In this document: one piece after another, positions 12,310-28,078 of the stretch
Numbering within the stretch: the stretch's first letter is position 1
Layout: each line of letters begins with the position of its first letter
Source: Kitasatospora cinereorecta
GTDB lineage: Bacteria; Actinomycetota; Actinomycetes; Streptomycetales; Streptomycetaceae
Length of the DNA: 64,000 bases
Direction of reading: 5' to 3'
NCBI RefSeq assembly: GCF_024172095.1
Contig: NZ_JAMZDX010000002.1
Coordinates: 434,001 to 498,000 of the forward strand
Notes under the pieces: model-generated
Told to the model about the DNA's origin: nothing
The model's input: only the letters and a program-made list of their open reading frames with translations
Database searches by the model: none
Program-made: the position numbers and the translations under genes

Positions 12310-13920
12310 TCAGGAGGCCGGCACCGGGAAGGGATCCGCGTCCGGCGTGAGCAGCTGGCCGGCGGCCGGTACCGCCTGGTCCACCAGGTAGGAGGTGACC
12401 AGGGCGTTCAGTGCGGCGCTCCGGCCGACCGCGCAGTGCTCGATCATGTCCACGGTGACCAGGACGGCGCTGCCCAGCTCGCGCTGCATGCTCTGGGCGA
12501 ACCGGTACTGGGTGGCCGGGTCGAAGGTGTTGCCGATGACCATCAGCGGGTGGGCGGTCCGCCGGTTCCACGGCCCGGTGTAGCGCTCGACCTCCCAGGT
12601 CTTCGCCGGCCAGGTCGCGCACGGCGGGGCGTCGAAGGCCTGGTAGCGGCCGAAGGTCGGCGCCTCGCGCTCCCACGCGCGGGCGATCAGCGGGAACAGC
12701 TGCGGCGCCGGCGGGTAGGGCTTGTCCAGGCAGTTGACGCCGTAGTAGGAGTCGTCGCTGGTGTACGGGGTGTCCGCCGGGGCCTCGCGCAGTGCGGCCG
12801 GTGCGGCCACCGCCAGCGCGGACGCCTCCTGCACCGGCGGCCGGTCGGCCCGGGAGCCGAGGGCGGGCTGCGGTGCGACCACCTGGTACAGCGCCTGCAT
12901 CGAGCGGGCCAGCGGGGCCTGGCGGCTCTGCGCGTACAGGGCGTTGGCGACCTGGCTGGTGAAGGTGGACAGGGTCACCGCGGAGCCGTCCGGCAGGGTG
13001 ACCGGGCCGGTGCGCAGCCGGTCGCGGACCAGGTCGAACTTGGCCCGGGTGTCGCCGTCTCCGAAGGCGCAGCGCGGGGCGCCGACCGCCTGGCAGCGCC
13101 TCAGGTACTCGGCCAGCGAGACCTCGAAGCCGCCAGCGGCGCGCCGGCGGTCGTACTCCAGGCCGTCGGCGAGGCGCAGTTGCGGGTCGACGTTCCCGTC
13201 GACGATCAGCGCCCGCACCTTGTCCGGGTACAGGTTGGCGTAGGTGGCGCCGATCAGGGTGCCGTACGAGAAGCCGGCGAAGGTGAGCTGCTTGTCGCCG
13301 ACGGCCTGGCGCATCCGGTCCAGGTCGCGGACCACGTTGAGGGTGGACATGTGCGGCAGCAGGGCGCCGGCGTTGCGGGCGCAGGCGGCGGAGTAGTCCC
13401 GGTCGGCCGCCAGGGTGGTGTCGATCTCGGCCCCGGTGACCGGGACGCCGGTGATCCGGCCGAGGACGGCTTCGGCGTCCTCGTCGGTGGTGAAGCAGCG
13501 CAGCGGGTTGCTGCGGGCGACGCCGCGCGGGTCGAAGCCGACCAGGTCGAAGTGGTCGCTCACGCGCTTCTCGAACCGGGTGGTGGTGGCCCACAGGTAG
13601 CCGCTGCCGCCCGGGCCGCCGGGGTTGAGGAAGAGCGAGCCGATCCGCTCCGCCGGGTTGCCGGCGCGGCGGCGCATCATCGCGATGCCGATCTTCTCGC
13701 CGTCGGGCCTGGCGTAGTCGAGCGGGACGGGGTAGACGGCGCAGTCGTAGCCGCCCGGGTCGGGCCGGGTCGGGTCGGGGTTGCACGGGGTCCAGACGAC
13801 CGGATCGACTCTCTTCTCCGGTGCTGCCGGGGCGGCCGTCGCGGCCTGGGCCGTTCCGGCGAGCAGGGCGAGGGCGCCGGTCAGGGCGAGCGCAAGGGTG
13901 GGTATGCGGAGCCGTGGCAA
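12310..13920 (-). CDS. secreted TAP-type alpha/beta hydrolase (tripeptidyl aminopeptidase/Slp family)
   Basis: A 536-residue exported serine hydrolase. The signal peptide is about residues 1-29 (hydrophobic core LALALTGALALLAG, then AQAATAAPA). The alpha/beta fold includes the oxyanion motif LNPGGPGGSG, the nucleophile elbow FAGFSYGTLIG (Ser), the acid in GNTFDPATQY and the histidine in MIEHCAV. The C-terminal TAP-like segment (ALVTSYLVDQAVPAAGQLLT) places it with Streptomyces tripeptidyl aminopeptidases and SlpD/SlpE proteases that remove N-terminal tripeptides from secreted proteins. An AT-rich stretch (13985-14015) upstream probably contains its promoter. Confidence 0.9.
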   Translation of the reverse strand: MPRLRIPTLALALTGALALLAGTAQAATAAPAAPEKRVDPVVWTPCNPDPTRPDPGGYDCAVYPVPLDYARPDGEKIGIAMMRRRAGNPAERIGSLFLNPGGPGGSGYLWATTTRFEKRVSDHFDLVGFDPRGVARSNPLRCFTTDEDAEAVLGRITGVPVTGAEIDTTLAADRDYSAACARNAGALLPHMSTLNVVRDLDRMRQAVGDKQLTFAGFSYGTLIGATYANLYPDKVRALIVDGNVDPQLRLADGLEYDRRRAAGGFEVSLAEYLRRCQAVGAPRCAFGDGDTRAKFDLVRDRLRTGPVTLPDGSAVTLSTFTSQVANALYAQSRQAPLARSMQALYQVVAPQPALGSRADRPPVQEASALAVAAPAALREAPADTPYTSDDSYYGVNCLDKPYPPAPQLFPLIARAWEREAPTFGRYQAFDAPPCATWPAKTWEVERYTGPWNRRTAHPLMVIGNTFDPATQYRFAQSMQRELGSAVLVTVDMIEHCAVGRSAALNALVTSYLVDQAVPAAGQLLTPDADPFPVPAS

Positions 13921-17143: not shown

Positions 17144-19942
17144 TCAGTCCGCCTGGCGCGTGGCGAACGCCTCCAATCCCTTGAGGCTCAGCCGCCGGTA
17201 GTGGTCGAGCCCGTGCTGCTGCGCGAGTTCGAGAGTCTCCAGGAAGTAGCGCCGTGCCACCTCGGGATCGCCGTGTTCGAGATGCGTCCGGGCGATCGTC
17301 TCGAGCGTGTCGGCGACGTTCCCGTGGCTGTGCTGCGCCCGCCGGATCTCGAGCGCCTCGGCGAGCACGTCCAGAGCCTCCTGCGGACGGCCCAGGCCGC
17401 GCAGCGTGTCGCCCAGATTGCTCAGCGCCGTCGACAACTTCTCCCGCGAACCGGCTGCCCGCCAGCCCGCCACCGCGGCCTGAAACGTCCGCTCGGCACC
17501 CTCCAGGTCGCCGGACTCGAACAGCACGCCCCCGGCCGTCAGCAGATCACCCGGTCGGCTCGTCGACGTCGAGAGCTCCAGGGCCTGCTCCAGGTACGCC
17601 TGTGCCTGGTCGAGCTCCCCGGCCTGCTGGCTCGCCGCAGCGAGGTTCGACAGCACCACGCGCTGGCCCTCGGTGTCGTCGACAGCCCGGAACAGCTCGA
17701 GGGCGGTCCGCAGGTGGTCGAGACTGCGCTCGTTGCGCTGGACCAGGCCGTTCGCCACCCCCAGACGGCCGTGCAGCCACGCCTGGCCTTCGCGGTCGCC
17801 GGCTGCGCGCGTCGCGGCGAGCGCCTCCTCCAGGCACTCCAGCCACACGCCGTTCCACCAGTAGGTCAGGCCGTAGCCGAATAGCGCCGCCGCGGCCCGC
17901 CAGGCGACGTCCGGACGGTCCAGCGCGACGGCGAGGCGGACGGCCGACCGGATCGCGGGCAGCTCGTCGACACACCACTCCAGTGCCGCCACCTCGTCCG
18001 CGAACTCGGGCAGCTCGGGGTCGGCCGGGTCCGCGGCGGCACCAGCCCCGGCGAGCGGCGGAATCGGCCGGGCCTGCGGCGCGATGGTCCGGTTGGCCTT
18101 GGTGACCGCCGCTGCGTACCAGCACACCAGCCGCAACTGGGCCGACCGCCGGGCCTCCTCGGACTCGTCCTCCCGGGCCCGCTCCGCCGCGAACTCGCCG
18201 AGCAGGTCGTGGAAGCGGTAGCGCCCCGACGCTGCCTGATCCAGCAGGTGGGAGTCGATCAGCGCGTCCAGGACGTCCAGCGCGTCGTCCACCGGCGCGC
18301 CCATCAGGGCGGCCGCGGACTCCGCCGAGTGGTGGTGCGGCCACAGGCCCAGCAGCCGGAACGCCCGCGCCGCCTCCCGCTCCACCGGCCGGTCGCCCGC
18401 CAGCAGCGAGCTGTACGAGAACGAGAACGCCTCCCGGACCGCGAGGTGGTCCACCGCGAGCGCCTTCAGCCGGTCCGCCCGGCCGAGCCGGCGGGCCAGC
18501 TCGTCCAGCCGCCAGGACGGCCGGTGTGCCAGCCGGCTGCCGGCGATCCGCAGGGCCAGCGGCAGGCCGGCGCAGGCCGCCATGATCTTCCCGGCGGCCA
18601 CCGGATCGGCCGCCACCCGGTCCTCGCCGCACATCGCCGCCAGCAGGCGGCGCTGCTCCTCCTCGGCCAGCGGACCCAGCGGGATCCGGGTCGAGCACTG
18701 CACCCCCGGCAGCTTGTGACGGCTGGTCACCACCACCGCGGAGCGCCCCGTCCCGGGCAGCAGCGGGGCGACCTGGCGGCTGTCCCCGGCGTTGTCCAGC
18801 ACCACCAGCACCCGCCGCTCGGCGAGCAGTGACCGGTAGAGCGCCGCCCGGTCGTCCACGTGCTCGGGCAGGGTCTCGCCCGCAACACCCAGATCGGTCA
18901 GGAAGCGGCCCAGCAGGTCGTGCGGCGTCCGGGCCGCGGACAGTCCGAAGCCGTGCAGGTCGGCGTAGAGCTGGCCGTCCGGGTAGTCCTCCCGCACGGC
19001 CCGGGCGCCGTGCACCACCAGCGTGGTCTTGCCGACACCGCCCATACCGGTGACCAGCACCACCCGGGCCGGCGCGTCCCGGTCGCCGGGGCGCAGGTAC
19101 AGCGCCAGCGCGTCCAGCTCGCCCTGCCGGCCGGTGAAGTCGCCCGGCGCGGTCGGCAGCTGGGCCGGCACCGGGACGGCGGCCACCGCATCGTCCGGCT
19201 CCTCCTGCGGGAGCGGCCCGTCCGCGGCCAGCACCTCCTGGTGGGCCCGCTGGACGGCGGCCCCCGGCTCCACGCCCAGCTCCTCCACCAGGGTGGTGCG
19301 CAGCTCCTGGTACACCGCGAGGGCGTCGGCCCGGCGGCCGGTGCGGTGCAGGACCAGCATCAGCTGGCGGTGGAAGGACTCCCGCAGCGGATGGTCGGCC
19401 GTCAGCCGGGCGAGTTCGGCGCTCAGCCCGTGGTGGCGGCCGAGCTCCAGCTCGGCGTCGAACCGCCACTCCAGCGCCTCCAGGTGAAGCTCCACCAGGT
19501 GGTCGAGCCCGGTCTCCGACCCGGCCGGCGGGCCGCCCCGCCAGAGGGCGAGCGCCGCCGTCACCTGCTCCGCGACGCGGGGCCAGTCCCGCTCGCCGTG
19601 CGCCGACCGGGCCGTACGCAGGTGCGTGGTGAACACGGCGCTGTCCAGCTCGCCGTCCTCGACCCGCAGGACGTACCCGGACGCGGTGGACCGCAGCCGG
19701 TCCTCCAGGAGCGGGCCGAGGCTCCGGCGCAGCCGGCCGATGTGGTTGTGCAGCGATGCCTGCGCGGTCCGCGGCGGCCGCTCGCCCCATACCGCCGCCA
19801 CCAGCGCTTCGGCGGTGACCGGGCGGTTGGGGTCGAGCAGAAGGTGCGTCAGCAGCGCCCGGTGGGTGGGACTGGTGATCGGACGCGGCTCGCGACCGTC
19901 GTGGACGGTCAGCGGGCCGAGCAGGCCGAACGCGATGGCCAT
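17144..19942 (-). CDS. SARP/AfsR-family transcriptional regulator (BTAD, NB-ARC, TPR)
   Basis: A 932-residue regulator built like AfsR. An OmpR-type winged helix occupies about residues 1-95 (HRALLTHLLLDPNRPVTAEA, TAQASLHNHIGRLRRSLG). A bacterial transcriptional activation domain spans about 98-243. An NB-ARC STAND ATPase follows with Walker A GMGGVGKTT (299-307), Walker B VLVVLDNA (378-385) and the downstream GLPLALRIAGSRLA motif. TPR repeats fill about 690-930. SARPs bind direct repeats upstream of antibiotic or developmental genes. No biosynthetic cluster is in view, so this may act as a global regulator. The start is ATG at 19942. A 357-bp upstream gap holds a G-quadruplex motif. Confidence 0.92.
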   Translation of the reverse strand: MAIAFGLLGPLTVHDGREPRPITSPTHRALLTHLLLDPNRPVTAEALVAAVWGERPPRTAQASLHNHIGRLRRSLGPLLEDRLRSTASGYVLRVEDGELDSAVFTTHLRTARSAHGERDWPRVAEQVTAALALWRGGPPAGSETGLDHLVELHLEALEWRFDAELELGRHHGLSAELARLTADHPLRESFHRQLMLVLHRTGRRADALAVYQELRTTLVEELGVEPGAAVQRAHQEVLAADGPLPQEEPDDAVAAVPVPAQLPTAPGDFTGRQGELDALALYLRPGDRDAPARVVLVTGMGGVGKTTLVVHGARAVREDYPDGQLYADLHGFGLSAARTPHDLLGRFLTDLGVAGETLPEHVDDRAALYRSLLAERRVLVVLDNAGDSRQVAPLLPGTGRSAVVVTSRHKLPGVQCSTRIPLGPLAEEEQRRLLAAMCGEDRVAADPVAAGKIMAACAGLPLALRIAGSRLAHRPSWRLDELARRLGRADRLKALAVDHLAVREAFSFSYSSLLAGDRPVEREAARAFRLLGLWPHHHSAESAAALMGAPVDDALDVLDALIDSHLLDQAASGRYRFHDLLGEFAAERAREDESEEARRSAQLRLVCWYAAAVTKANRTIAPQARPIPPLAGAGAAADPADPELPEFADEVAALEWCVDELPAIRSAVRLAVALDRPDVAWRAAAALFGYGLTYWWNGVWLECLEEALAATRAAGDREGQAWLHGRLGVANGLVQRNERSLDHLRTALELFRAVDDTEGQRVVLSNLAAASQQAGELDQAQAYLEQALELSTSTSRPGDLLTAGGVLFESGDLEGAERTFQAAVAGWRAAGSREKLSTALSNLGDTLRGLGRPQEALDVLAEALEIRRAQHSHGNVADTLETIARTHLEHGDPEVARRYFLETLELAQQHGLDHYRRLSLKGLEAFATRQAD

Positions 19943-20299: not shown

Positions 20300-21442
20300 T
20301 CACAGCGCGCAGAACGCGTCGACGGTGGCCTTGCCGGTGTCCTGCTGGCCCTTCGTCCCGGCCATCAGGTGGAACTCGTTGTTGGCGCGCACCACCTGCT
20401 TGCTGCCGTCCTCGCTGGTGAGCCAGTCGCTGTAGTAGCCGAGGACGGCGCCGTTGTGGTTCCAGGCCCACTGCCCGCACGGCAGCTGCACGTGGATGAT
20501 GCCCAGGCCGTACCCGACGGTGCCGTCGGCCGTCACCGGGACGGTGGTCTTCAGCTCGGCCTCCTGCGCCGGTGCCAGGAGCTTCCCGGTCACCAGCGCC
20601 CGGGAGAACGCGGCCAGGTCGTCCACGGTGGACACCATCGCCCCGGCGGGCCCGAAGGTCTGCACGTCGGACACGGTGACGTCGCGGATCACGATCCCGA
20701 CCACCGGGTACTCGTAGCCGTGCAGGTACGTGCCGTGCAGCGCCGGGTCGGCGGTGGGGAAGGTGGTGTCGTGCAGGCCGAGCGGTTCGACGATCCGCTG
20801 CCGGATCTCGGTGGCCGCGTCGTTGCCGGTGACCGCCTTGATCACCATGCCGGCCAGCACGTAGTTGGTGTTGGCGTAGCTCCACTTCGTCCCCGGCGCG
20901 GCGGACGGCTTCTGCTGGGCGAGCGCCAGGTCCACCAGGGTCTGCGGCGGCCAGGGCCGGTTGGGCTGGGTGTTCAGCGCGTAGGTGAGCGCGAAGCCGG
21001 CGTCCTTGGCGTACTCGGGCAGGCCGGAGGTGTGGTTGAGCAGCTGACGGATGGTGATCTTCGTGCCGTCGTAGCCGTTGGCGGCGACCGCGCCCGGCAG
21101 CCAGTGGTCCACGGTGTCGTCCAGCGACAGTCGGTGCTCGCCCTCCAGCTGGAGCAGCACGGTGGCCGTGAACGCCTTGGTGTTGCTGCCGATCCGGAAC
21201 TGCGCCCGGGGATCCGCCGCGACCCGGGTGGCCAGGTCGCCCACCCCCGCGTGGACGTACTGCGCCTCGTCGCCCCGGCGGACCAGGCCGATCACCCCGG
21301 GGTAGCCGTCGGCCACCCCCTGCTGCGCACCGGCCTGCAGCAGACCGGCCGCGGTCGGCGTGTCGGCGTGCGCCGGGCCGATCCCGGCCAGGGCGGCGAG
21401 CACCAGCGCGGCGCCGGCCGCGGTCAGACGTATGGACTTCAT
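20300..21442 (-). CDS. secreted serine hydrolase, beta-lactamase class C / D-Ala-D-Ala carboxypeptidase fold
   Basis: A 380-residue exported protein. Signal peptide at about residues 1-26 (RLTAAGAALVLAALAG, then PAHA). The penicillin-binding fold shows all three catalytic motifs: SxxK in RIGSNTKAFTA, YxN in KWSYANTNYVLAG and HxG in WNHNGAVLGYYS. Relatives are D,D-carboxypeptidases, esterases or beta-lactam-binding proteins, and sequence alone does not decide. The ATG at 21442 follows GGAGGA. The promoter region carries a 20-bp inverted repeat at 21537-21556 that recurs before the XRE-NACHT gene, suggesting that regulator controls this hydrolase. Confidence 0.9.
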   Translation of the reverse strand: MKSIRLTAAGAALVLAALAGIGPAHADTPTAAGLLQAGAQQGVADGYPGVIGLVRRGDEAQYVHAGVGDLATRVAADPRAQFRIGSNTKAFTATVLLQLEGEHRLSLDDTVDHWLPGAVAANGYDGTKITIRQLLNHTSGLPEYAKDAGFALTYALNTQPNRPWPPQTLVDLALAQQKPSAAPGTKWSYANTNYVLAGMVIKAVTGNDAATEIRQRIVEPLGLHDTTFPTADPALHGTYLHGYEYPVVGIVIRDVTVSDVQTFGPAGAMVSTVDDLAAFSRALVTGKLLAPAQEAELKTTVPVTADGTVGYGLGIIHVQLPCGQWAWNHNGAVLGYYSDWLTSEDGSKQVVRANNEFHLMAGTKGQQDTGKATVDAFCAL

Positions 21443-21536
21443 CGGATTCCTCCATCGACGGGTGGTCATCCCACGCCACGGGTTGGTGGCTGCTCCGATG
21501 CTGGTCCGGACCGGCTGTGGTGGACAGGTCAAGCCA

Positions 21537-21556
21537 CCGGCCAGATATGGCCGACC
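21537..21556. promoter_or_regulatory. inverted repeat shared with the XRE-NACHT promoter (copy 2)
   Basis: ACCGGCCA (21537-21544), GATA, then TGGCCGAC (21549-21556; wobble only in the last two bases). It matches the perfect copy at 24062-24081 in 14 of 16 arm positions. It lies 95 bp before the serine hydrolase start, just upstream of a TTGACC that could be its -35. Confidence 0.65.
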
Positions 21557-21557
21557 G

Positions 21558-24011
21558 TCAGGACGTCCCGCTCGGGTCCGCGGTCGGGGCCCCGGTGCGG
21601 GCGTCGGTGGAGGGGAAGCGGGCCGGTGCGTAGCCGGCCCGGCGCCGGCGGAAGGTGTGGGCGAGGTGGTGCTGCAACCGCAGGTGCCGGAACTGGTACA
21701 CCGCCCCCGTCCGGCGCAGCACCCCGCGCCGGTAGGCGTCGTCCAGGAAGGCCTCCGGATCCCAGGGCAGCCGGCCGGTCAACGGCAGCCACACCCGGGA
21801 CAGCACCAGCCACTGCCCCCAGGCGGTGAAGGCGAGGGCGTACGCGAGCCCGCCGCCCAGCCCGGCGACCGTACCGATGACCAGCGCGTCCGAGAGCCGC
21901 CAGTTCAGCGGTCCGAGCCAGCCCTGCAGCGCGTCGACGACCAGGCGCCCGCCGAAGGCGATCACGAGGGTGAACGCCGGTGCCAGCACCAGGACCTGGC
22001 GGACCACCGCCCTGCGATTGGTGGCCAGCAGATCGGCCGGAGTCGCCGCCGACGCCACGTCGACGGGCGCCTCCAGCGCGGCCACCAGCCCGAACACCAG
22101 CCCGGCGGCCAGGCCGAAGATCAGCCCGAAGCACAGCATGTTGATCAGGGTGGCCTCGATCACCGCCGGATCGGTGATCGGGATCCCCGGATAGAGCGCG
22201 CGCTCCAACGTGAGGGCGCAGGCGCAGCCGACGCCCATCACCGAGCCGCCGAGCAGCCCGTCCACGAACCGGCGGCCGAAGGTCCGCACCGACCGGCGAC
22301 CGCCACCCCGGCGGCCCGGCAGCCGCAGGCGGACCCGGGTCGGTTCGAGGGCCCTCCCGCTGCCGACCGCGAGCATCGCCGCGTACACGGACCCGAAGGC
22401 GACCCCGGCCACCGGGCCCATCAGACTGCCCTGCAGCAGGGCTTCGCCGATCCCGCCGGCGGTGACCAGCGGATACACCAGCCAGTTCGGCAGGGCGACG
22501 GCGAGCGCGGTCGCCACCACCACGGCCAGGACCCGGGTCGAGCGCCGCACCGTGTCGCCGAGCTGCCACCAGCCGAGGTCCTGCTGGTCGCGGTCGAGCC
22601 GGACCAGGTGCTGGGCGAGGTGCCCGAGCCAGTACTCGGCGCGCTCGGGGTCCCATTTTCGCCGGCGCGGGCCGGGGGCGTCCGGCTCCGGGACGGCGGG
22701 CCGGTAGACCGCGGGCAGGAACCCCGCCAGCAGGTGCTCCTCCAGCGCCCGTACGGTCGGGAAGCGTGCGGTGTCGAGCAGCTCGGCCGGGTCCCGGTCC
22801 GGTGCGTCGCTGTACATCGTGCGGGCCAGGCTCACCATCAGCGGGGTGGTCAGCGCCGCCGCGAGGTTCGCCCCGCCCGGGGTCCGCGGGTCGCGCAGCG
22901 CGTCCAGGACCCCGTCCCACACCGAACCGCCGCCCGGCTCGCCGTCGGGGGCGGTCGTCCGGTCGGTCCGCGGCAGGTAGGAGCCCAGGTCGTCGAGGGT
23001 CAGATCGGTCAGCTCGATGCCGGCCGCCCACGCCGGCGGCGCGTGCGCCGCCCGGACCGCCTCGGCGAACTCCTCGCGCCGACTGGTCAGCACCAGCGGC
23101 ATCGTGGACGCGTTCAGCGCCTCCAGGGCCTCGCGCCGCAGCCCCTCCGCGATCTCGTCGAACCCGTCCAGCACCGGCAGGATCAGGTCGGCGTCCACCA
23201 GTGCGGCGGCCAGCGAGCCGCGACCGGGGCCCCGTCGGGCCAGATGCGGGTGGTCGCGCAGCAGGCGGGCGATCAGCCAGTCGCGCAGTGCGACGGTCTT
23301 CGGGTCCCACGGACCGAGGCCGCACACGACCGGCACCCGGCCACCGACCGCGGCCGGCGCCTCCAGCAGGTCCAGCACCAGCCTGATCGTCAGCACCGAC
23401 TTGCCGGATCCCGCCCGGCCGAGCACCACCAGCCGGCCGGACGAGACCCGCCGGTAGACCTCCGCCACACTCCGCAGATCACCGCTCAGGTCCAGCTGCC
23501 GCGGCACCCCGCCCGGCCCGAGCCGCTGGACGTTCTCCGCACGGTCCGTCAGCTCCGCGGGCGCCGGCCGCCACCGGACCGGCAGCGGGAACGGATGGGC
23601 GATCCGTCGCTGCGCCTCCTCGTCCCGCCACCGGCGCCGCACCTCGGTCGCCAACTCCAGTGCGGCGTCGGCGAGCGCGGGGTGCACCGGCGGTGCGGCG
23701 GGGGCCCGAGGGGCAGCCGCGGGCGGGGGAGCGGACGGCTCCGCGGGCACCCCGGCCCCGGCGTCGGTCCTGCCCACTTCCGCGGTCTCGGTCCCGGCGA
23801 GGACGTCCGAGAGCTGTTTCCGGTCGTCGGGGCCGATCTCCAGGGCGTCCGCGAGCAGGTTCACCGTGCCCATCCGGTGGTCGGTCGACCTGCCGGTCTC
23901 CAACCGCCGGATGGTGCGGACGCTCACCCCCGACCGCTCCGCGACCTGCTCCTGCGTCAGCCCCGCCCGATTGCGCAGCCCGCGTAACAACGTGCCGAGC
24001 TGATCCGTCAC
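21558..24011 (-). CDS. XRE helix-turn-helix - NACHT NTPase - polytopic membrane protein
   Basis: An 817-residue three-part protein. Residues 1-60 are an XRE-type helix-turn-helix (LRNRAGLTQEQVAERSGVSV, then RTIRRLETG). After a Pro/Ala linker (about 82-110), a NACHT STAND ATPase occupies about 190-430: Walker A GRAGSGKS (198-205), Walker B VLDGFDE (280-286) and sensor-like LTSRREE (309-315). Residues 490-740 hold roughly eight to ten hydrophobic helices in pairs (for example VLAVVVATALAVALPNWLVY, LINMLCFGLIFGLAAGLVFG). The end is a YQFRHLRLQHHLA motif (772-784), common at the C-terminus of actinobacterial NACHT proteins. It could sense a signal at the membrane and control transcription, or act as an immune-type NLR. 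The start is GTG at 24011. Confidence 0.85.
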   Translation of the reverse strand: MTDQLGTLLRGLRNRAGLTQEQVAERSGVSVRTIRRLETGRSTDHRMGTVNLLADALEIGPDDRKQLSDVLAGTETAEVGRTDAGAGVPAEPSAPPPAAAPRAPAAPPVHPALADAALELATEVRRRWRDEEAQRRIAHPFPLPVRWRPAPAELTDRAENVQRLGPGGVPRQLDLSGDLRSVAEVYRRVSSGRLVVLGRAGSGKSVLTIRLVLDLLEAPAAVGGRVPVVCGLGPWDPKTVALRDWLIARLLRDHPHLARRGPGRGSLAAALVDADLILPVLDGFDEIAEGLRREALEALNASTMPLVLTSRREEFAEAVRAAHAPPAWAAGIELTDLTLDDLGSYLPRTDRTTAPDGEPGGGSVWDGVLDALRDPRTPGGANLAAALTTPLMVSLARTMYSDAPDRDPAELLDTARFPTVRALEEHLLAGFLPAVYRPAVPEPDAPGPRRRKWDPERAEYWLGHLAQHLVRLDRDQQDLGWWQLGDTVRRSTRVLAVVVATALAVALPNWLVYPLVTAGGIGEALLQGSLMGPVAGVAFGSVYAAMLAVGSGRALEPTRVRLRLPGRRGGGRRSVRTFGRRFVDGLLGGSVMGVGCACALTLERALYPGIPITDPAVIEATLINMLCFGLIFGLAAGLVFGLVAALEAPVDVASAATPADLLATNRRAVVRQVLVLAPAFTLVIAFGGRLVVDALQGWLGPLNWRLSDALVIGTVAGLGGGLAYALAFTAWGQWLVLSRVWLPLTGRLPWDPEAFLDDAYRRGVLRRTGAVYQFRHLRLQHHLAHTFRRRRAGYAPARFPSTDARTGAPTADPSGTS

Positions 24012-24061
24012 TTGGCGCCCCTCTTCTCGCCGCCGCGGCCGTTCGTGAGCCTACCGTGACG

Positions 24062-24081
24062 ACCGGCCACAGTTGGCCGGT
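24062..24081. promoter_or_regulatory. perfect inverted repeat between XRE-NACHT and zinc-ribbon genes (copy 1)
   Basis: ACCGGCCA (24062-24069) and TGGCCGGT (24074-24081) form a perfect 8-bp dyad around CAGT. It is 51 bp before the leftward XRE-NACHT start and 96 bp before the rightward zinc-ribbon gene. It overlaps the probable -35 of the NACHT promoter (a TAGGCT -10 lies nearer the gene), which suits autorepression. Confidence 0.7.
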
Positions 24082-24176
24082 GCCCTGGCCTGTCCGGCGC
24101 AGCGGCGCGACCTCCACGATCGCTGCCCGGGCTCGCACGGCCCGCACCATCCGGCCCACCGACCCGAGGAGTCCCC

Positions 24177-24404
24177 ATGGCCCACCGCTACTGGTGCGGC
24201 GAGTGCAGCCACCGCACCCCCTGGCTCACCGAGTCCGAGGCCGCACAGCGGCAGATCGAGCACTACGCGGCCGAGCATCCCGGCATCCCGCCCGGCGGCC
24301 ACGTCGAGGTCGACCGGGGCGGCCCCGACCGCGGCTTCGGCTGCCTCCAGCTGCTCGGGATCGCGATCCTGCTGCTGGTCCTCGCGGCGGCCTGCCGCCG
24401 CTGA
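24177..24404 (+). CDS. small zinc-ribbon-like membrane protein, conserved hypothetical
   Basis: A 75-residue protein. The N-terminus has a CxxC (YWCGECSHRTPW) and the sequence then reads AQRQIEHYAAEHPGIPPGG. It ends in a single membrane helix (about 55-72, LQLLGIAILLLVLAAA) with one cysteine. A half zinc-ribbon with the helix suggests a tail-anchored protein. I recall similar short proteins across Streptomyces without assigned function. The ATG at 24177 follows CGAGGAG. It is divergent from the XRE-NACHT gene and shares its inverted-repeat region, so the two may be co-regulated. Confidence 0.75.
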   Translation: MAHRYWCGECSHRTPWLTESEAAQRQIEHYAAEHPGIPPGGHVEVDRGGPDRGFGCLQLLGIAILLLVLAAACRR

Positions 24405-26549: not shown

Positions 26550-26783
26550 GACGGTCTGCCCGGTCGGTCTGCCCGGCCGGCCGCATTGTCGGAGGGGATG
26601 ATTTGGGACAGCGGAAACCCGGGTCGGAGGAACGCTTCTGCCGGTAATTCCAGGTCGAGTGAATGTGCGAGCCATCACCGTTGAGAGTGAATGCGTGATC
26701 GCTGCCGTACCCCGTTCGCGGTGCCCTCGTTCACCCATTTGCAGTCCGGGGGAACGGGCTGCGCCATCGACCAGGAGGAACAC

Positions 26784-27026
26784 ATGAAGGCCAAGAAGAT
26801 CGCTGCCGTTGTCGCTGCCACCGGTGGCCTGGTGCTGGCCGGCGCGGGTGCCGCGGCCGCTCACGGCGGGGCTTCCGCCGAGGGTGTGGCCGCCGGCTCC
26901 CCGGGCGTGCTGTCGGGCAACCTGATTCAGATCCCGGTGAACGTGCCGGTCAACGTCTGCGGCAACACGATCAGCGTGATCGGCCTGCTCAACCCGGCGT
27001 TCGGCAACCACTGCATGAACGGCTGA
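26784..27026 (+). CDS. short chaplin
   Basis: An 80-residue secreted surface protein. The signal peptide is about residues 1-27 (AAVVAATGGLVLAGAGAAAA). One chaplin domain of about 50 residues follows: SPGVLSGNLIQIPVNVPVNV, then CGNTISVIGLLNPAFGNHC with its two conserved cysteines. Chaplins assemble into amyloid-like fibres that make aerial hyphae hydrophobic. The ATG at 26784 follows AGGAGG. A CGTTGA at 26679-26684 resembles the -10 I recall for BldN-dependent chaplin promoters, but no matching -35 was found. A strong hairpin terminator follows. Confidence 0.95.
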   Translation: MKAKKIAAVVAATGGLVLAGAGAAAAHGGASAEGVAAGSPGVLSGNLIQIPVNVPVNVCGNTISVIGLLNPAFGNHCMNG

Positions 27027-27060
27027 GCGGATCCCGTCCGCTGGTGACGGTCACGTCACT

Positions 27061-27106
27061 CACGCGCCCCCGCGCGGTGGTTTCTGCCACCGCCTGGGGG
27101 CGCGTG
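27061..27106. terminator. terminator after the short chaplin gene
   Basis: An outer 11-bp stem, CACGCGCCCCC (27061-27071) with its complement at 27096-27106, encloses an inner seven-base stem GCGGTGG/CCACCGC with a TTTCTG loop. It lies 35 bp past the chaplin stop. Confidence 0.85.
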
Positions 27107-27283
27107 CCGTTCCGGCGCGACCACTCGTTCGGGTCGGCGTCGACCTGGGTTTCCGGCGTGTCACTCGATCTGATGAACGGACTGCATCCGGCCGATCCAA
27201 TTGGCGAGTCGGTCGTTGTCTGTTGTACCGGCGAGGGTCTCGTCAGGAATTCCGACAATCAGAAGAAGAAGTCAGGGGAGTCC

Positions 27284-28078
27284 ATGCGACAGGTCGCAAA
27301 GAAGGGCCTTCTCACGGCCATGGCCACCGGCAGCGTTCTGGCCTCCACGGCCGGCTACGCGTACGCCGCGGGCAGCGACGCCCACGGTACGGCCGCCAAC
27401 TCGCCCGGCGTCGGCTCGGGCAACTCGGTGCAGGCCCCGGTGGACCTCCCCGTGAACGCCTGCGGCAACACCATCAACGTGATCGGCCTGCTCAACCCGG
27501 CGTACGGCAACGACTGCTCCAACCAGTCCGGGGGCGGCCACGGCGGCGGCACCCACGCGGGCTCCGGCTCGTCCGCGAGCGGTTCCAGCACCAACTCGCC
27601 CGGCGTCGTCTCCGGCAACCACGTGCAGGCCCCGATCAGCGCCCCGGTCGACGCCTGCGGCAACTCGGTCAACGTGGTCGGCATCGGCAACCCGGCCTTC
27701 GGCAACGACTGCGGCAACCACGGGTCCACCACCGCCCACCCGCCGACCACGCCGCCCCCGTCGCACGGCGACGACTGCCCGCCGGACCACCACACCCCGC
27801 CGCCCACCGGTGACCACACCCCGCCGCCCACCAGCGTCCCGGAGACCCCGTCCACCGGCACCGACCGCACCGGCGGCGGGACCCCGACCACCGTGACGCC
27901 GGTCTCCTCCACCGGGACGGGGAGCAGCACCCAGACCGTCGAGGCCGCGGCGCCCGTCCGCGACCAGCTCGCCTCCACCGGCGCTTCCGGGCTGGAGCTG
28001 CTCGCCCCGACCGGTGCGCTGCTGCTCATCGGCGGCGGCGTGCTCTACCGCCGCTCGCGGGTGAACGCCGGCCGCTGA
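27284..28078 (+). CDS. long chaplin with LAXTG cell-wall sorting signal
   Basis: A 264-residue long chaplin. A signal peptide (about 1-28, ending AYAA) precedes two chaplin domains at about 35-80 and 100-150, each with a cysteine pair (NACGNTINVIGLLNPAYGNDC-type). A Pro/Thr/His-rich wall-spanning linker follows (about 150-230). The sortase signal is LASTG near 229-233, then a hydrophobic helix and RRSRVNAGR. A class E sortase should link it to peptidoglycan, where it anchors short chaplins. The ATG at 27284 follows AGGGGAG. The short and long genes are adjacent, as in the chpC/chpH arrangement. Confidence 0.95.
   Translation: MRQVAKKGLLTAMATGSVLASTAGYAYAAGSDAHGTAANSPGVGSGNSVQAPVDLPVNACGNTINVIGLLNPAYGNDCSNQSGGGHGGGTHAGSGSSASGSSTNSPGVVSGNHVQAPISAPVDACGNSVNVVGIGNPAFGNDCGNHGSTTAHPPTTPPPSHGDDCPPDHHTPPPTGDHTPPPTSVPETPSTGTDRTGGGTPTTVTPVSSTGTGSSTQTVEAAAPVRDQLASTGASGLELLAPTGALLLIGGGVLYRRSRVNAGR

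Follow-up and report, generated by a model that had tools for sequence, protein, structure and literature searches.

A conserved actinomycete gene predicted to encode an NLR-like membrane transcription regulator with a candidate operator

We analysed a 64-kb stretch of the Kitasatospora cinereorecta genome (8.64 Mb), hereafter the window, whose positions supply all coordinates below, and focused on a gene for an XRE-NACHT-membrane-winged-helix protein (Table 1). Comparative genomics and structure prediction indicate that this uncharacterised gene is real and conserved, codes for an NLR-like transcription regulator in the membrane and has a predicted operator, and we think it probable that the protein is a membrane-integral one-component regulator of genes for exported proteins. 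An earlier note on this DNA had proposed an XRE-NACHT-membrane NLR whose effector might be a pore at one end. The NLR-like core with its membrane and DNA-binding domains stands, and the C-terminal pore effector is rejected because the membrane block is internal to the core in the model. That note had also held that kinship with ordinary transcription regulators would count against it; the protein does look like a transcription regulator, just not an ordinary one.

A genome scan gave 79 loci with homologues in other genomes, which rules out chance for the gene. The XRE end is present in 74 of them, in truncated form at L072; the other five match solely from about residue 100. Conservation was read from alignment A2 with 75 rows, of which four come from the own genome and 71 from 70 loci; of the 79, L029, L037, L048, L057, L065, L074, L075, L078 and L079 are absent, some for a broken frame. 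Alignments A1 and A3 comprise 34 and 56 rows. The helix-turn-helix already noticed at the N-terminus is matched by Pfam (Table 1), and its recognition helix is kept (T33 in 68/69, R36 in 66/69 and E38 in 69/69 XRE rows). Structural matches of this domain are XRE regulators, repressors and restriction-modification controller proteins. A Pro/Ala-rich linker, variable in length between homologues, connects it to the NACHT core, where both Walker motifs are indeed intact (A, GRAGSGKS at 198-205; B, LPVLDGFDE at 278-286): none of the 75 aligned homologues departs from G198, G203, K204, D282, D285 and E286, nor from the key residues of the P-loop, Walker B and LTSR motifs. Walker motifs of this kind, with an hhh-D-G-[FL]-D-E type motif, place the protein among the NACHT/NLR-related STAND NTPases. 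Pfam NACHT itself scores the window protein below its 26.7-bit cut-off (19.1 bits, E = 0.0012) and matches 34/34 scanned members at E ≤ 1, the best at 4.1e-10.

An AlphaFold model built from the 75 sequences (mean pLDDT 89, pTM 0.80) contains six hydrophobic helices (490-516, 521-548, 572-606, 615-646, 658-699 and 706-728/730-744) with glycine-rich faces, and hydropathy peaks agree with them, so the helices described earlier are real. The QFRH...LxxHLA end singled out in the same note forms a winged helix in the model, with FRH (774-776, including H776) invariant in 75/75 rows. The closest solved structures are NOD2, NLRP2 and NLRP3, with a Foldseek match to NOD2 at E = 1.6e-4 and VIA scores of Z = 16.9 against NLRP3 (7vtq; 318 aligned residues, rmsd 5.0) and Z = 15.8 against NOD2 (5irn). 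The NLRP3 alignment spans model residues 115-796; because only 318 of these 682 residues align, we take block 490-744 to be skipped, a reading and not an output of the aligner, which reports range ends alone. The model therefore has an NBD-HD1-winged-helix fold of the NLR kind (NBD, nucleotide-binding domain; HD1, the helical domain that follows it), with a membrane block of about 255 residues predicted to be inserted inside the core, before or within the terminal winged helix. Since the number of helices is even, the NACHT core would be cytoplasmic, as would the last winged helix. The modelled chain thus carries a DNA-binding domain together with membrane helices, as a transmembrane regulator does. 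Folded alone, the membrane domain found no significant Foldseek match (best E = 0.2), and VIA returned a nuclear-pore chain (Z = 11.2), a plant complex-I chain (8.7) and the ADP/ATP carrier (6.1); we claim no fold for it because these scores lie under the tool's caution level for helical bundles.

A conserved palindrome, ACCGGYCA-N4-TGRCCGGT, is present ahead of the gene in 66 of the 78 upstream regions when up to two mismatches are allowed (none in 29, one in 31 and two in 6), a count that is partly circular because the consensus was read from those same regions; among 1580 windows of 400 bp drawn at random from the same loci, 1.3% contain it. Its distance to the gene start is mostly 65-115 bp. 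All four full-length copies in the own genome, at different chromosomal places, carry it, as does the plasmid locus L130 (exact); it is found in 0/7 upstream regions of XRE-less relatives and is missing from that of L072. Adjoining the palindrome is a third half-site, ACAGGYCA/TGRCCTGT, whose CAGGYCA core 53 of 63 promoters contain at up to one mismatch, against a mean of 1.5 and a maximum of 6 in shuffles. Of 62 palindromes, 51 have it on the side of the partner, none on that of the NACHT gene and 11 on neither. In the window the half-site TGGCCTGT beside the palindrome ACCGGCCACAGTTGGCCGGT is directed at the divergent zinc-finger gene. The promoter alignment places the GGYCA half-sites at -21, -9 and +3, that is, 12 bp apart. 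Towards the NACHT gene, 49 of 63 aligned promoters have a -10-like TANNNT at +27 to +30, hence the palindrome covers the NACHT -35 region. In the partner direction the order, by eye and in most listed cases, is palindrome, third half-site and a CANCATCG-like element. The association of the site with the gene and its polarity are thereby established, and the comparison suggests that the site is probably the operator of the XRE domain.

Linkage to the neighbouring genes is likewise established, and the two genes noticed earlier, the zinc-finger gene and the hydrolase, stay with the NACHT gene across genomes. The 75-aa zinc-finger/membrane gene has a homologue in 54 of 79 loci, all 54 among the 74 XRE-bearing ones; in its 63 profile rows (rows, not loci), CxxC is present in 52, HxxxxH in 55 and the hydrophobic helix in 52. 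A plasmid search with this protein matched five records. In four the gene lies divergent beside an XRE-NACHT gene, two of the four being the same strain, and the fifth has neither an XRE-NACHT gene nor the site within 5 kb. The adjacent hydrolase belongs to Pfam Beta-lactamase (PF00144, E = 3.4e-58), and its nearest solved structures by sequence are D-alanyl-D-alanine carboxypeptidases (E = 1.1e-69; the R61 enzyme 1cef, 3.4e-55), in keeping with the peptidoglycan-type enzyme first suggested. Across the 74 XRE loci, partners include a PF00756 esterase (38), a PF00144 hydrolase (24), PPE-like (8), trypsin-like (8) and WXG-like (2) proteins, and 64 loci hold at least one of six tracked families; these counts are approximate, since the neighbour genes come from a simple script based on GC by codon position. 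Families were assigned by profile search, clustering and Pfam, the trypsin-like, PPE-like and WXG-like names being weak or given by eye. The esterase family also appears near the XRE-less loci L083 and L086, where the calls may be shadow open reading frames.

The same sites mark a predicted regulon. A second composite site precedes the hydrolase, whose ATG (21442) is about 80 bp away. In the own genome the palindrome occurs at 14 places with up to one mismatch, versus 3 for a reversed control, and the composite at 11 places with up to three mismatches, versus 1. Two of the composite places are NACHT/zinc-finger promoters, one in the window and one at the C5 copy; others belong to an XRE fragment, a vWA/PP2C pair adjoining the third copy and the hydrolase of the window. 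The composite places also include those of a WXG100_2 protein, of two secreted proteins with a lectin domain, one of them an esterase, of a small protein without assigned family and of a protein kinase, plus another site closely resembling that of the kinase. The 79 loci contain 101 palindrome sites versus 4 control hits, and 38 of the 101 are elsewhere than in the NACHT promoter (before esterases 8, PF00144 genes 4, PPE-like genes 6, WXG-like genes 2 and orphans 5, with 13 unassigned). The own-genome palindromes L107, L109 and L110 are probably chance, because L110 is intragenic and the control gives 3 hits. At L108 (G000:C8:293000-312000), two near-identical operator regions occur, one before a Ser/Thr kinase, with a further operator before a 514-aa secreted protein that has a lectin domain and, in its C-terminal part, no Pfam match. 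At L132, L133, L136 and L137 a divergent LuxR-HTH + BTAD regulator (LuxR by eye) faces the operator, replacing the zinc-finger gene; because of these four later-fetched loci, the targets are not all exported proteins.

In the mechanism that we infer, the six-helix block would sense a cue in or at the membrane, and an ATP-dependent rearrangement and oligomerisation of the NACHT core, as expected from the family, would reposition the N-terminal XRE domains, which would bind ACCGGYCA-N4-TGRCCGGT plus the third half-site TGRCCTGT. Autorepression of the NACHT gene is suggested because the palindrome overlaps its own -35 region, and activation of the small membrane protein with the zinc finger and of exported proteins (in the window the PF00144 hydrolase, elsewhere esterases, WXG100/PPE-type proteins and others) because the third half-site faces divergent or downstream partner promoters. 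The likely benefit would be to switch on envelope-remodelling or antagonistic exported proteins upon membrane perturbation.

Several observations count against this proposal. The consensus was read by eye from upstream regions that were afterwards scored, and 12 of the 74 XRE loci lack the palindrome (up to two mismatches) at the expected place. Later-fetched loci do agree with the association, with the site in 4/5 XRE-bearing and 0/1 XRE-less cases (L131 and L135, identical to training loci, were excluded), but the four positives are one clade near training locus L060 and thus not fully independent. Partner genes vary, and 10 of the 74 loci have none of the six families. In six other genomes the composite occurs at 7 places versus 3 control hits; because such sites are few there, the regulon would be mainly local. 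By eye, partner promoters show no textbook -35/-10 pair. Finally, the activator/autorepressor sign is read from promoter geometry alone, and the regulator case as a whole is one of comparative genomics and predicted structure.

The alternative that survives best differs from the favoured activator/autorepressor in regulatory sign alone, and our estimates for the two overlap: pure repression of a local stress- or toxin-like module, where the membrane NACHT protein holds XRE on DNA and releases it on sensing, derepressing the partner. We regard this as possible yet clearly the less probable version. It fits the repressors and controller proteins among the structural neighbours of the helix-turn-helix and the covered NACHT -35 region, whereas the position of the third half-site (partner side in 51/62, NACHT side in 0/62) and the lack of a consensus -35 in partner promoters by eye look more activator-like, though not decisively so. 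A more speculative extension of the favoured regulator, which we put forward tentatively, is an inflammasome-like membrane NLR ring presenting several XRE domains to the half-site array at 12-bp spacing, coupling membrane damage or contact to the transcription of exported effectors, with an exchangeable N-terminal module (XRE or other signalling heads). If true, this would be an NLR whose output is the secretome.

XRE-type autoregulation is common in toxin-antitoxin and defence loci. An anti-phage bNACHT-type NLR with a membrane block that detects infection or makes a lethal pore, an XRE domain that merely autoregulates and an accessory hydrolase would accord with the NLR fold, the conserved membrane block, the relatives on Streptomyces plasmids and the patchy spread (about 8/60 genomes of the order, among the matches listed, with XRE-to-winged-helix matches). 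We nevertheless consider it unlikely. Operators also stand before exported-protein genes, where mere autoregulation would not need them, and the membrane block is internal to the core. PADLOC matched only HTH models on the protein, plus a marginal WYL model at the HTH, and returned no defence-system signal from its NACHT/membrane part; nine of ten neighbours had no PADLOC match or generic TPR/RecD-like models only, and one gave a full-length specific match (C3a206, TAP-like, E = 8.4e-73). No homologue was found among 50,697 phage records. That the palindrome belongs to another conserved regulator is very improbable: the own-genome sites L106, L107, L108, L109 and L110 are not near any XRE-NACHT gene, but this gene is what the sites at four own-genome places and across many genera have in common, and neither the XRE-less relatives nor L072 carry the site.

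Three further full-length copies in the own genome share 53-57% identity with the window protein, and a stand-alone XRE fragment (L105, G000:C2:1119507-1119806) with a one-mismatch operator in front is a decayed fifth copy. The loci span Streptomyces, Kitasatospora, Streptacidiphilus, Embleya, Salinispora, Amycolatopsis, Saccharopolyspora and others. In an order-level scan, 57 of 60 genomes had some match, often the HTH alone, and about 8, including the own genome, had matches from XRE to winged helix, both among the matches listed. Relatives occur on 28 plasmid records, five of which cover at least 80% of the protein. Copies at L065, L037 and L078 are split across two frames, which suggests decay or assembly error. 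Four XRE-less relatives (L082:5461-8058, L083:10742-12826, L086:5815-8133 and L087:5809-8136) start with a short N.[IVF]SG...G.VIQA-like motif, which we take to resemble bacterial amyloid signalling sequences, and L072 (5938-8370) has both a truncated XRE and an amyloid-like motif, as if caught amid an N-terminal swap. The motif is absent from the window protein, and no partner open reading frame of at least 100 aa at the XRE-less and L072 loci matches the amyloid regular expression. An amyloid-signalling (BASS) reading was set aside, since the motif-like stretch is confined to these relatives and no partner was found.

Table 1 Features of the locus in window coordinates
Feature	Position	Strand	Evidence
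XRE-NACHT-membrane-winged-helix protein, 817 aa, GTG start	21558..24011	-	open reading frame, Pfam, structure model
XRE/Cro-type helix-turn-helix, residues 4-67	23811..24002	-	Pfam HTH_31, E 1.1e-15
NACHT nucleotide-binding and following helical domain, ~residues 146-440	22692..23576	-	Pfam in members; NLRP3/NOD2 structural match
Predicted six-helix membrane block, ~residues 490-744	21780..22544	-	model pLDDT 89, hydropathy, domain model pLDDT 90
Predicted terminal winged helix with invariant H776, ~residues 752-790	21642..21758	-	model and alignment
Candidate composite operator: palindrome ACCGGCCACAGTTGGCCGGT 24062-24081 and third half-site TGGCCTGT 24086-24093	24062..24093	+	0 mismatches to palindrome and composite
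-10-like TAGGCT, NACHT promoter	24048..24053	-	sequence
75-aa CxxC/HxxxxH protein with C-terminal hydrophobic helix, divergent partner	24177..24404	+	homologues in other loci
Second candidate composite operator, before hydrolase; palindrome 21536-21555	21524..21555	-	2 mismatches to palindrome, 1 to composite
Secreted PF00144 serine hydrolase, DD-carboxypeptidase type	20300..21442	-	SxxK, YxN, HxG; hydrophobic leader by eye

Two genes downstream, at 17144-19942, lies an AfsR-like BTAD-NB-ARC-TPR regulator, itself a STAND protein. As a linked partner it was rejected, its query matching the own-genome loci L007/L008 alone, and so was an M20 peptidase, whose query matched one locus. Because these queries barely matched, we place the immediate window neighbours outside the unit, linkage to tRNA-Leu elsewhere not having been searched. 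The gene with the C3a206 match encodes a TAP-like secreted alpha/beta hydrolase (12310-13920), and the secreted proteins at 26691-27026 and 27044-28078 presumably resemble chaplins.

With the core of metazoan NLRs (NLRP3, NOD2, NLRC4) the window protein shares the NBD-HD1-winged helix order and the histidine of the terminal winged helix, a residue that has a role in NLRs; it differs in its six inserted membrane helices, its N-terminal XRE domain and the absence of leucine-rich repeats. Some mammalian NLRs, namely CIITA and NLRC5, act in transcription. AfsR/SARP and MalT are STAND NTPases fused to a DNA-binding domain (winged/BTAD or LuxR), soluble and with a TPR sensor, in place of which the window protein has an XRE head and a membrane insert. 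Restriction-modification controller proteins (C.AhdI, C.Esp1396I), which use paired sites to switch from activation to repression, share the XRE fold and differ in being small and soluble.

The central NACHT module is shared with bacterial bNACHT anti-phage proteins. Those described in the main text of PMC12169576 carry nuclease effectors or short C-terminal domains, and the words "transmembrane" and "helix-turn-helix" do not occur there. BcrR (PMC10269533) and HigX (PMC13384398) combine a DNA-binding and a multi-helix membrane domain in one protein, and HigX targets are described as envelope-related. In the accessible parts of these two papers they differ in having no NTPase switch: "NACHT" and "NTPase" are absent from the former and "NACHT" from the latter. 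The architecture described here was not found in the openly accessible literature, a search that mostly left subscription journals outside. By analogy, the nearest functional relatives are the membrane one-component regulators BcrR and HigX, with NLRs as the counterpart of the switch. The usual reading of NLRs is as switches for death or defence; the NLR core of the present protein is predicted to carry an internal membrane sensor and a DNA-binding head, and one short DNA site would make input, switch and output testable. Confirmation would supply a named regulator of exported hydrolases and type VII-type proteins for many multicellular actinomycetes, offer a route to the ligand of a membrane NLR, and extend the membrane one-component regulators to ATP-driven switches.
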